Source: Prochlorococcus sp. AG-409-O23 (lineage in GTDB: Bacteria > Cyanobacteriota > Cyanobacteriia > PCC-6307 > Cyanobiaceae). From it: a DNA stretch of 64,000 nucleotides. A program made the translations under genes and the position numbers. The notes beneath the pieces are model-generated. The model made no database searches. It was given only the letters and a program-made list of their open reading frames with translations, and was not told the origin of the DNA. The DNA is taken from the NCBI GenBank assembly GCA_003215355.1, contig QCKL01000005.1:1-64000 (forward strand), in the 5' to 3' direction. Below, piece by piece: positions 4,425 through 38,512 of this stretch; the stretch's first letter is position 1, and the number at the start of each line of letters is the position of its first letter.

Positions 4425-5081
4425 ATGGCGAACTCCTCACCCGTCTACGACTGGTTCCAGGAACGTCTTGAAATTCAGGACATAGCTGACGACGTCACTT
4501 CAAAATACGTCCCTCCCCACGTCAATATCTTTTATTGCCTTGGTGGGATAACCCTTGTTTGCTTTCTTATTCAGTTTGCAACAGGGTTTGCGATGACTTT
4601 TTACTACAAACCAACAGTTGCTGAGGCTTACAGCTCAGTTAGCTATCTAATGACTGATGTCAGCTTTGGGTGGCTCATCCGTTCAGTTCATCGCTGGAGC
4701 GCCTCGATGATGGTGCTCATGTTGATTCTTCATGTTTTCAGGGTTTATCTCACTGGAGGATTCAAGAGACCTAGAGAGCTCACATGGGTCACAGGGGTAA
4801 CGATGGCTGTGATTACTGTTTCGTTTGGTGTCACTGGTTATTCACTCCCTTGGGACCAGGTTGGTTATTGGGCAGTAAAAATTGTTTCAGGTGTACCGGC
4901 CGCTATCCCAGTAGTAGGAGACTTTATGGTGGAGCTACTCCGAGGGGGTGAGAGCGTGGGGCAGCCAACACTTACACGCTTTTATAGTCTTCACACCTTT
5001 GTTTTGCCTTGGCTCTTGGCTGTTTTCATGCTTATGCATTTTCTTATGATCCGAAAGCAGGGCATCTCAGGACCTTTATGA
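4425..5081 (+). CDS. petB: Cytochrome b6 (PetB)
   Basis: [41 protein letters not shown]; the track start at 4401 is 8 codons upstream of the conserved start; 218 aa. Confidence 0.97.
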
Positions 5082-5692: not shown

Positions 5693-7180
5693 CTATATAT
5701 CTGGCATGATTTCTTCAAGATCCATCATCAGAACATCCTCGGGACAAACTCTCAATAGGTGATGTAGTAGTAGAAAACCAACAATTGTCCAAGTTTGATA
5801 GGTCCTTGATTGTTGTCCGACCCATGTTCCTGTGGGCCCATCGAAATATTCCGCCCATTTCTGGCGAGGGAGTTGATTCAATTGGCTCCAGTAGCACTCT
5901 TCAAGGAGAGCACGCATCTGCCCCATTAAGAGAACATCAGCATGTGGATAGCGTTTTTCATGAAGAAGAATTGAGGCTCCAAAGAACCAAAGGAGACTTG
6001 GCCAATGCCCACCATTGTGATAACTCCATGGCCAGTTTTTAGGATCTGAACCAGTTTTGTTTTGCCACTCTGCTCCGTCCATAGGGGGATGGCAGATGCG
6101 CATTGGCATCTGAGCCATTAAATGTTGACGGTTGTGGAGGACTAGTCGAAAGAGAGCTCTTTGTTGAGGCGCTGTTAGTACTCCAAACATGCATGCGAGT
6201 GAGTTCCCTAAGCTGTAAAAACGGAAATCAGGTCTACCTGTTCGGATATTCCCTATTAGATACCCTCCACGATTCTCAAGCCAGTCTTGTAGCCAAGAAG
6301 GCACTACTTGTGGTTGAACATTGAACTCATTTTGGTGTTGGTCTTCTCCATATTGTTCTGTAGGTCTTCTTCTGAGAACTTGCATCGTTTTGCTTGTTAC
6401 CCAGTAGTGCTTTAGGAGGAATTGACGTAGGTCATGTACCCATTGCCTTGTAAGGACAAGCCTTTGGTCTAGTAGTCGACTGACTTGATGCTTTCTGCTT
6501 AATTCCATCAGTTCGATACAGCTACGCAGGCATGCATAAAGGAGGACTTCGACTTCTAGTGGTGCGCCCCAGACGTCCATTGGGCGATCAATCATGAACG
6601 CACAGTCAGGGACAAAAAGAACAGGTGTCCCTTCAAAGGTTGGGTGCAGGACTAGATCTAATAAAAGTTGCACCCCTCTTTGCACTTTTTGACTTGTCCC
6701 AAAACTCTTATCTCCACTTCTCCTTACATACAACCAACATAAAATTGGCCACCAAAGACTTGCGTCTGCTGATGTGATTCTTCCAATTGACCTCTGGCCA
6801 TAATCTGCAATGAGCTCGCCTTGCTCCTCTACAAAGCTTGTTGGGAAAACACCTCTGGTTTGATATGTAGTGCTTTGCAGATCTAGGCATACGCTAAGGA
6901 ACTGTTTTACGACTTGATATCGCTTCTGGGTAAGTAGGTAGATCATTACTGGGACGTTGTCCCGAAGAAATATTTCGCCGTAATTGAGTGCTTCATTATT
7001 CGCGGGGTGCTCCAGAGCCGCGACGCTGCCTGCGATAGAGCCACCAATCTCAATCAGGGTTCGCTCAAAATGTTCTTTGGCCCTTTTGATGACTTGGTCC
7101 TCATTCGAGTTGGGCCTTACTCTTTTGTGCTCTTGGCTGAAGCGTCCTGCCATGAAGTGATTTCCAATACTCCTGGCCAA
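5693..7180 (-). CDS. GH100 neutral/alkaline invertase
   Basis: RDNVPVMIYLLTQ, DLQSTTYQTRGVFPTSF, ADASLWWPILCW and NGGHWPSLLWF are characteristic of the plant/cyanobacterial neutral invertase family. Confidence 0.9.
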   Translation of the reverse strand: MARSIGNHFMAGRFSQEHKRVRPNSNEDQVIKRAKEHFERTLIEIGGSIAGSVAALEHPANNEALNYGEIFLRDNVPVMIYLLTQKRYQVVKQFLSVCLDLQSTTYQTRGVFPTSFVEEQGELIADYGQRSIGRITSADASLWWPILCWLYVRRSGDKSFGTSQKVQRGVQLLLDLVLHPTFEGTPVLFVPDCAFMIDRPMDVWGAPLEVEVLLYACLRSCIELMELSRKHQVSRLLDQRLVLTRQWVHDLRQFLLKHYWVTSKTMQVLRRRPTEQYGEDQHQNEFNVQPQVVPSWLQDWLENRGGYLIGNIRTGRPDFRFYSLGNSLACMFGVLTAPQQRALFRLVLHNRQHLMAQMPMRICHPPMDGAEWQNKTGSDPKNWPWSYHNGGHWPSLLWFFGASILLHEKRYPHADVLLMGQMRALLEECYWSQLNQLPRQKWAEYFDGPTGTWVGQQSRTYQTWTIVGFLLLHHLLRVCPEDVLMMDLEEIMPDI

Positions 7181-26123: not shown

Positions 26124-26324
26124 GGAGGGTCTTATTTCAGCATTATTTACGGAAATTGGATTACTGCATTTCTGTACTTTTACCTGTGACTTGTTAGTTG
26201 ATTTTATTGGTTAATACGGTTATCGAGGAAAGAAGCCGAAAAGTGAGGTCCAAATAGGAGAATCTTGCGCTTGCTGTCTAAAGCAGAAGGAAACAAGTGT
26301 TGGCGCCTTAAAAACTTCTTGTTA

Positions 26325-26443
26325 GGACATAAGGACTTTATGTTCTCATCAAGTCTCCGACTGTCTAAAACGACACAAGCGACATATGTCCCCAAGACAG
26401 TCGTTAGAAGAAAGAGTGATGCCGGTTGGGTCACTCTTTTTTT
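26325..26443 (+). ncRNA. Candidate structured ncRNA (or structured 3' UTR) ending in a strong terminator
   Basis: GGACATAA-GGACT-TTATGTTC hairpin, CGACTGTCT(26358-26366)/AGACAGTCG(26395-26403) 9-bp stem enclosing palindrome GACATATGTC, then a canonical terminator. Confidence 0.55.
26411..26443 (+). terminator. Rho-independent terminator
   Basis: AAAGAGTGA-TGCCGGTTGGG-TCACTCTTT followed by a T-run. Confidence 0.85.
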
Positions 26444-26524
26444 GTTCTAAGTATTGGCACTAGTCGATTTCCCTCCTATAGGACAGACGCATTAAAGCGA
26501 GGTTGATGGCATAGCTAAAGCGGC

Positions 26525-26552
26525 AAAGACTGTGGCTGTAAGCACAGTCTTT
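26525..26552. repeat. Perfect 10-bp hairpin
   Basis: AAAGACTGTG-GCTGTAAG-CACAGTCTTT. Confidence 0.7.
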
Positions 26553-26863
26553 TAGCGAACTAAAAGATTGGCGAAACTTCGAATACTGAGAATGTAAGCA
26601 TTCAAGAGAAAGTGCAGCTTGTATGACCTGTAGGAATTTACTTGTGCCGGCTCAGGTTGTGCCTTCACCTTCTTGAGAGGTTCTATTCATCAACTCCTTA
26701 TTCCAACAAGGCAGATATCTGATTAAGTACTGAAAGCAATGGTCCAAAAGCGAGTACTGGAGTTTGGTCGGATGCCTGCGGGGACTTGGACTTTTTCTCT
26801 GGTTTTGCTCGCGCTTAGCAAAAATACTCATTAGGCTCTCTGGACCTGTGAGTACAAGGTCAA

Positions 26864-26977
26864 ATGACTCCTATTTCTGCGGCGCTTAATTTGATCCCTA
26901 TTGGTAGTAGGGAATTATTGGAATTTGTTTTTTTTGTGTTGGTGGGTTTTACAGCAGGATCTTTGGGGTTGATCTGA
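26864..26977 (+). CDS. Candidate 37-aa membrane micro-protein (below the ORF-track length cut-off)
   Basis: ATG ACT CCT ... TGA encodes MTPISAALNLIPIGSRELLEFVFFVLVGFTAGSLGLI; AAGGT Shine-Dalgarno-like element just upstream; one predicted TM stretch. Confidence 0.5.
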   Translation: MTPISAALNLIPIGSRELLEFVFFVLVGFTAGSLGLI

Positions 26978-37105: not shown

Positions 37106-38512
37106 CTAGCAGCGTTGCCATGGACGTTCTAGTAATGCTGCAATAAGTGCAAATGAAGCAAGAATCCAAAGTACTGGTACTAGCCCATATCTACTAACTA
37201 AAGCCCCTGCGAGTACAAGAGGCAGGCTAAGAGCAATATTGATTAAGTTGTTTTGAAGCCCAAACACTTTGCCGCGTTTGGATTCAGGAGTGTCCTCTTG
37301 GAGAGTCGTCTGAGCAGGAATTGCTACAAGTGCTGCTCCCATCCCAAGCATGCCGCAAAGGATCAATGTGAATCCAAGGGATCCCATGAATTGACCCAGT
37401 AGAACAAGGCACCAGGTGATAACACCCAAGCCTGTGGCTGTAAGACTTTTTCTGTTGAAGCCATGGCCAATTTGGGCTATTACTAGTGCGCCTAAGGCCA
37501 TTCCTATACCACTTATGGCTAGGAGAGTACCGAATTGAGTTGGCCCAAGCTCCTTAATTGATGAGGCAAGACTTATAGCTAGAACATAAAGGGCGGCTAG
37601 CAAGCTATATAGAAAAACAAGGTGCAACATTGCACTCCTGACTGTGGGTGTTTCCCTAATGACTTGCAGTCCATCTCTGATTTCTTGAAAGAGATTAATT
37701 TTGGCGTTTGACCTGGGCTTCTCAATTAAATGAATTGTGCTAATGCTAATAGCCGCAGTCGCATAGCAAAATGGTAGAAGTATGAATTCGCCTCCATTTA
37801 TTCCTAAATTTTGAGAAAAATGCTTTAGAAGACGCAAGATGGGGTCGCCAAGGGCAAATCCAACAATTGTTGCGCCCATGCATGTGGCTTGATAGAGGGA
37901 ATTTGCAGCCAGCAGATGTTCTTTAGGTACTAATAATGGGATTGCCGCTTGTTCTGCTGGGGCAAAGAATTGGGTAAGAACTGACTCTAAAAAAGTCATT
38001 ATCAATAGCACCCAATAGCCCCAGCCAATACCTATCCAGGTTGGGCCAGGCGAAATGCAAATTGGGACAAAAAGTACTAATAGTGCCCTCAGTCCATTTG
38101 AGGCGACCATTACACGGCGCTTAGGCCATAGATCTGCTCCTACCCCTGCGATGGTGCCTAGAACCATCGCAGGAATTGTATTGGCTACATAGATGCCTGT
38201 CGCTAAAAGGGTAATGCGCTGGGCCCGTGTTTCGAAGTCCATTCGAATGGCCGCTGCTACCTCTGCAAGAGCTTGATTGTCTTGAGGTGCATTGCTTACC
38301 CAGTACTGGGCAATTAAATACACCATTAAAACTATGTAGAACTTGTCAGCTAGTTGGGAGAAAATCTGCCCTATCCATAGTTTGCGGAATCCATCCAGGC
38401 GGATGACAGCCTGGATGCCTGTGCCCTTTTGTGCATGGGGGCCTTCGGGAATGGTGCTGGAGGGACTAGAACCGCTCAAGATGTCTTTTCTGTCGTCCTC
38501 ATAATCTCTCAT
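37106..38512 (-). CDS. MFS transporter
   Basis: Multi-TM protein of 468 aa with MFS-type features (LWIGQIFSQLADKFYIVLMVYLIAQYW...). Confidence 0.88.
   Translation of the reverse strand: MRDYEDDRKDILSGSSPSSTIPEGPHAQKGTGIQAVIRLDGFRKLWIGQIFSQLADKFYIVLMVYLIAQYWVSNAPQDNQALAEVAAAIRMDFETRAQRITLLATGIYVANTIPAMVLGTIAGVGADLWPKRRVMVASNGLRALLVLFVPICISPGPTWIGIGWGYWVLLIMTFLESVLTQFFAPAEQAAIPLLVPKEHLLAANSLYQATCMGATIVGFALGDPILRLLKHFSQNLGINGGEFILLPFCYATAAISISTIHLIEKPRSNAKINLFQEIRDGLQVIRETPTVRSAMLHLVFLYSLLAALYVLAISLASSIKELGPTQFGTLLAISGIGMALGALVIAQIGHGFNRKSLTATGLGVITWCLVLLGQFMGSLGFTLILCGMLGMGAALVAIPAQTTLQEDTPESKRGKVFGLQNNLINIALSLPLVLAGALVSRYGLVPVLWILASFALIAALLERPWQRC

Follow-up and report, generated by a model that had tools for sequence, protein, structure and literature searches.

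The window, a 64,000-nt stretch of DNA from a low-light-type Prochlorococcus, carries a conserved structured element between a GH13 gene (end 26123) and tRNA-Thr, away from yfr10-yfr2. The conserved unit spans 26317-26446 on the forward strand, with a core of ~125-130 nt; positions 26240-26316, part of the 26240-26445 extent originally predicted, are unconserved. The element, its parts and related features are:

26317-26446 (+): core of the R1-family candidate sRNA; R1 score 132 bits, blastn homologues at 77-87% identity
26321-26329 (+): 5' strand of long-range stem S1 (GTT, then GGACA), from the covariation count
26334-26338 (+): 5' strand of hairpin P2 (GACTT), partner AAGTC at 26351-26355
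26351-26355 (+): 3' strand of P2 (AAGTC), from the covariation count
26378-26382 (+): 5' strand of stem S2 (AGCGA), partner TCGTT at 26401-26405
26387-26398 (+): 3' strand of S1 (TGTCC 26387-26391, GAC 26396-26398), from RNAalifold and the covariation count
26401-26405 (+): 3' strand of S2 (TCGTT), from the covariation count
26407-26443 (+): intrinsic terminator hairpin and T-run; 16 pairs, 98% paired, 6 two-sided pairs
26500-26775 (+): Cys-rich small-protein pseudogene; tblastn E = 7e-11, in-frame stops
Contig C21 of the same genome (G000:C21, L129), 6377-6497: decayed second R1 copy, 38 bits

Searches with blastn and with a covariance model built from the 12 copies (R1, the name used here for the family) give 12 strong copies in 10 Prochlorococcus genomes, the window included, sharing 77-87% identity with the window copy and scoring 114-149 bits. 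By blastn, the core occurs in nine genomes besides the window's own, two of which hold two copies, and three further matches span 22-30 bases, at chance level. Carriers include single-cell assemblies and, with G030, G051 and G057, three complete genomes in one contig each. R1 additionally detects weak, apparently decaying copies in G108, G072, G019 and, on C21, in the window's own genome, a 1.38-Mb assembly of 55 contigs that is 69% complete and may therefore hold more copies. Neither 400 family genomes nor narrower sets around G051 and G030 yielded a further strong R1 copy, although these searches score a restricted number of first-look candidates, under stricter filters once more than 40 genomes are searched, and very divergent copies may escape. 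Across the 44 genomes of the high-light genus, R1 gives noise only. Matches in G006 (33 bits) and G333 (29 bits) look unrelated, and those inspected at 14-25 bits are a protein-coding stretch common to high-light genomes (presumably dnaJ-like), ordinary terminators or unrelated sequence. A phage origin of the RNA is rejected, 50,697 phage records giving no match, and pattern matches in viral contigs have only the pattern in common and look like chance. A coding role for the 61-aa ORF is rejected, as most homologues contain in-frame stops or frameshifts.

Fold and covariation

The 130-nt core alone folds significantly (z = -4.44, 0 of 200 shuffles); for 26240-26450, z is -2.95. RNAalifold of the 12 copies recovers the terminator along with the inner part of the long-range stem. 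The five-helix structure named by us is paired in 92.6% of cells across 12 copies and 90.0% across 15. With 15 copies, 13 pairs show two-sided changes against a shuffled mean of 5.7, and the covariation score is 0.251 against 0.171 in shuffles, neither value being reached in 500 shuffles, a test that the relatedness of the sequences inflates. Slid partners score at most 0.105, a comparison that favours the named structure, which was picked after the sequences were seen.

Covariation sits mostly in the terminator, which is intact in every strong copy. The terminator in the original prediction is confirmed as a perfect hairpin, AAAGAGTGATGCCGGTTGGGTCACTCTTT, followed by a T-run at about 26411-26443. 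Its near-invariant tip, GATGCCNGTTGGGTC (26418-26432), is found without mismatch at one place in the window's genome; single-mismatch versions lie in the decayed C21 copy and once on C44. Across the 15 copies, the inner part of S1 is paired in 92% of cells with one two-sided pair and the outer part in 76%, with a C-G to A-U change in G072 and G019. P2 is paired in 72% of cells, with three pairs showing two-sided changes; S2 reaches 92%, its two-sided changes being confined to weak, divergent copies. S1 and S2 are likely to form an H-type pseudoknot in this model, with thin covariation. Covariation supports a conserved fold in which an intrinsic terminator follows a long-range stem and a hairpin.

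The initial reading, a structured ncRNA ending in a strong intrinsic terminator, is well supported by conservation across genera and by the covarying pairs; its boundaries, two of its stems, its palindrome and its hint of Yfr2 are unsupported. Among 12 homologues, no more than 60% of cells retain the stem CGACTGTCT/AGACAGTCG, which is not a family feature, and the local hairpin GGACATAA/TTATGTTC keeps 85% of cells with zero two-sided changes. Taken jointly, their covariation is not above shuffles, and slid versions score equal or higher. The palindrome GACATATGTC arises from a 2-nt insertion unique to the window, the 11 other strong copies reading GCGATTTG. The terminator, S1, P2 and S2 of the window copy are all intact, and judged by sequence this copy looks functional.

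Comparison with known small RNAs

No family in Rfam 15 matches 26317-26446, at gathering thresholds or at E <= 5. Yfr2/Cyano-1 (RF01701), hinted at earlier from a GGAAACA near 26289, is rejected as its identity, the model giving no match to the core though it detects true Cyano-1 genes elsewhere in the genome. Yfr2 is, like the R1 candidate, a Prochlorococcus sRNA with a terminator and several copies per genome, and the two genes share a cluster in relatives, but the R1 core is without the GGAAACA repeat hairpin and differs in length and fold. The repeat that characterizes the 5' hairpin loop of Yfr2/Cyano-1 is missing, the single GGAAACA at 26289 lying outside the core, and the window contains 12 GGAAACA against 10.7 expected. 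Like sRNAs with the Yfr1/Yfr10 motif, R1 is small and island-associated, with Yfr10 as its opposite-strand neighbour in five genomes; its core, however, lacks ACUCCUCACAC, and its ~125 nt compare with 78 nt for Yfr10 in MED4 (PMC2518516). In the window this motif has zero exact matches and one single-mismatch match, at 4432. Yfr11 and Yfr16 of MED4, at 149 and 138 nt close to R1 in length, are likewise paralogous sRNAs from islands (PMC2518516); they are rejected, with no R1 match at their published places (L135, L136) and unlike sequences.

It is distinctly unlikely that R1 is a low-light Prochlorococcus sRNA known under another name (Yfr101-108), diverged or uncatalogued in Rfam. Here G109 is taken to be NATL2A and a further genome to be RCC307; only the MED4 and SS120 assignments are confirmed by published gene positions. 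Yfr103 resembles R1 as a multi-copy picocyanobacterial ncRNA of conserved structure reported from low-light strains, but R1 gives only noise (<=20 bits) in the genomes taken as SS120, NATL2A and RCC307, strains with reports of Yfr103 or Yfr106-108. Yfr103 and Yfr106-108 are rejected on this pattern of presence and absence, the best R1 match in G109 being 19.7 bits. Several such sRNAs are reported from MIT9313 and NATL2A (PMC7368042, PMC5069720), which favours a known RNA; against it, Yfr103 measures 290-328 nt in CC9605 (PMC5069720). Absent from Rfam 15, and set apart from Yfr103 and Yfr106-108 by reported presence and from Yfr11/Yfr16 by the lack of an R1 match, R1 appears to be a new RNA.

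The yfr10-yfr2 cluster and a probable regulatory role

Although not its identity, Yfr2 surfaces in the neighbourhood of R1, whose gene lies beside yfr10 and yfr2 genes in several relatives. In five genomes (G030, G011, G020, G128 and G057), it stands head to head with a Yfr10-type sRNA gene, with yfr2/Cyano-1 beyond. Upstream of the R1 core, at a distance of 61-68 nt and on the opposite strand, is the Yfr1/Yfr10 motif (in G057 with one base changed), placed in a hairpin that a clear terminator follows in four of the five. Cyano-1/Yfr2 scores 54 bits in G030 and 49.6 in G057 (cut-off 41) and falls just under the cut-off in G011 (40.2), G020 (38.0) and G128 (35.3); the distance to yfr2 is 1.7 kb in G057 and 0.7 kb in G011. 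A sixth genome, G040, has one R1 copy downstream of yfr10-yfr2 on the same strand, all three in tandem, and the window's genome carries yfr10 and yfr2 (47.3 bits), their motifs intact, on C21, ~1.5 kb from the decayed R1 copy. These loci probably represent one inherited arrangement rather than independent events. The yfr10-yfr2 tandem of MED4 was located at its published coordinates (PMC2518516), and Yfr10 and Yfr2 are reported as interacting (PMC6778093).

Other copies occupy different contexts. The core begins at, or a few bases past, the upstream stop codon in G051, G084 and G108, a position that, together with the strongest covariation lying in the terminator, would suit a 3'UTR module co-transcribed with the upstream gene, acting as a structured stabiliser and terminator or as the source of a processed sRNA. 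We consider this unlikely: the genes upstream of R1 copies are mutually unrelated, the conserved fold reaches well beyond the terminator, and in five genomes the next upstream feature is the divergent yfr10, so that no same-strand gene directly upstream could transcribe these copies.

R1 is instead probably a gene for a small regulatory RNA that is transcribed independently and acts in trans in low-light-type Prochlorococcus, a reading favoured by homologues in 10 genomes, covariation, the unconserved ORF, changing neighbourhoods and the head-to-head yfr10-yfr2 layout. Transcription would start near a GTTAGG box (GTYAGG) at about 26321, from a promoter just upstream of 26320, and would end at the intrinsic terminator; the P2 loop or other unpaired segments may pair with mRNAs or partner sRNAs. 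The divergent yfr10 layout argues for such a promoter of its own, although neither the window spacer nor the G030 cluster shows a consensus promoter. Where R1 and yfr10 stand back to back, the likely start sites would be only about 50 nt apart, giving overlapping promoters that could come under joint regulation.

A more specific reading makes R1 a third member of the Yfr1/Yfr10-Yfr2 circuit in low-light Prochlorococcus, sharing its regulation with yfr10 via divergent promoters that overlap, and with a P2 loop that would titrate Yfr2 (GUGUUUYC against GGAAACAC); we judge it quite unlikely. The P2 loop forms a mean of 7.2 of 8 pairs with the Yfr2 motif, equalled by 10.6% of permuted motifs, and pairing of R1 with Yfr2 or Yfr10 sequences is no better than controls. 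Among eight motifs tried, CUCCUCAC scored 0.014 with only 6 of 8 pairs and is not counted as support.

With its small set of protein regulators, Prochlorococcus is believed to depend on small RNAs. A structured RNA gene beside yfr10-yfr2 in little-studied low-light lineages suggests that the cluster may exceed its two known partners. R1 offers a well-delimited gene for experiments and is probably a further small regulatory RNA of this marine phytoplankter.

Turnover and the GH13-tRNA spacer

R1 copies outside the yfr10-yfr2 cluster lie behind a gene for a Cys-rich protein or a DUF1651 gene, and two of them have a resolvase close by; the C21 copy has a damaged terminator. Shifting neighbourhoods and duplicated, decayed copies indicate that the R1 gene is mobile and subject to duplication and decay, in line with reports on island-associated Prochlorococcus sRNAs (PMC2518516). 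Gain and loss with genomic islands is the best explanation, and the patchy distribution and decaying copies imply that the RNA is dispensable. The losses and duplications show sRNA gene turnover in variable regions. The same mobility, with the resolvase gene near two copies, could mark a DNA element, namely a cassette end or recombination site spreading with small island genes and lacking any RNA role. Covariation including G-U pairs, a T-run in one fixed orientation typical of RNA and the absence of matches in phage records make this highly improbable.

The Cys-rich small protein belongs to no Pfam family, and its intact relatives lie directly upstream of R1 RNA in G051. Its gene lies upstream of R1 in relatives and downstream in the window; an alignment placing a decayed Cys-rich gene directly upstream of the window copy is within shuffle range.

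The GH13-side spacer next to the tRNA is suggested to be a variable site. In G037 (L003, 641-1556), the order GH13, 37-aa ORF, tRNA-Thr is kept, R1 RNA is absent, and the GH13-to-leader spacer has no significant similarity to that of the window. The 37-aa ORF (26864-26977) encodes one predicted-looking hydrophobic stretch and is preceded, just before its ATG, by a conserved leader, CCTGTGAGTACAAGG (region 26845-26977), which shows no similarity to yfr6 of MED4 or SS120. Its product has a match to PHROG family 17067 (E = 2.6e-11), a family of unknown function, although tblastn finds no phage record. Among 300 family genomes, 63 contain related ORFs or the leader. The leader motif has a second match in the window at 37206-37220 with two mismatches, a total of 2 against 0.11 expected.
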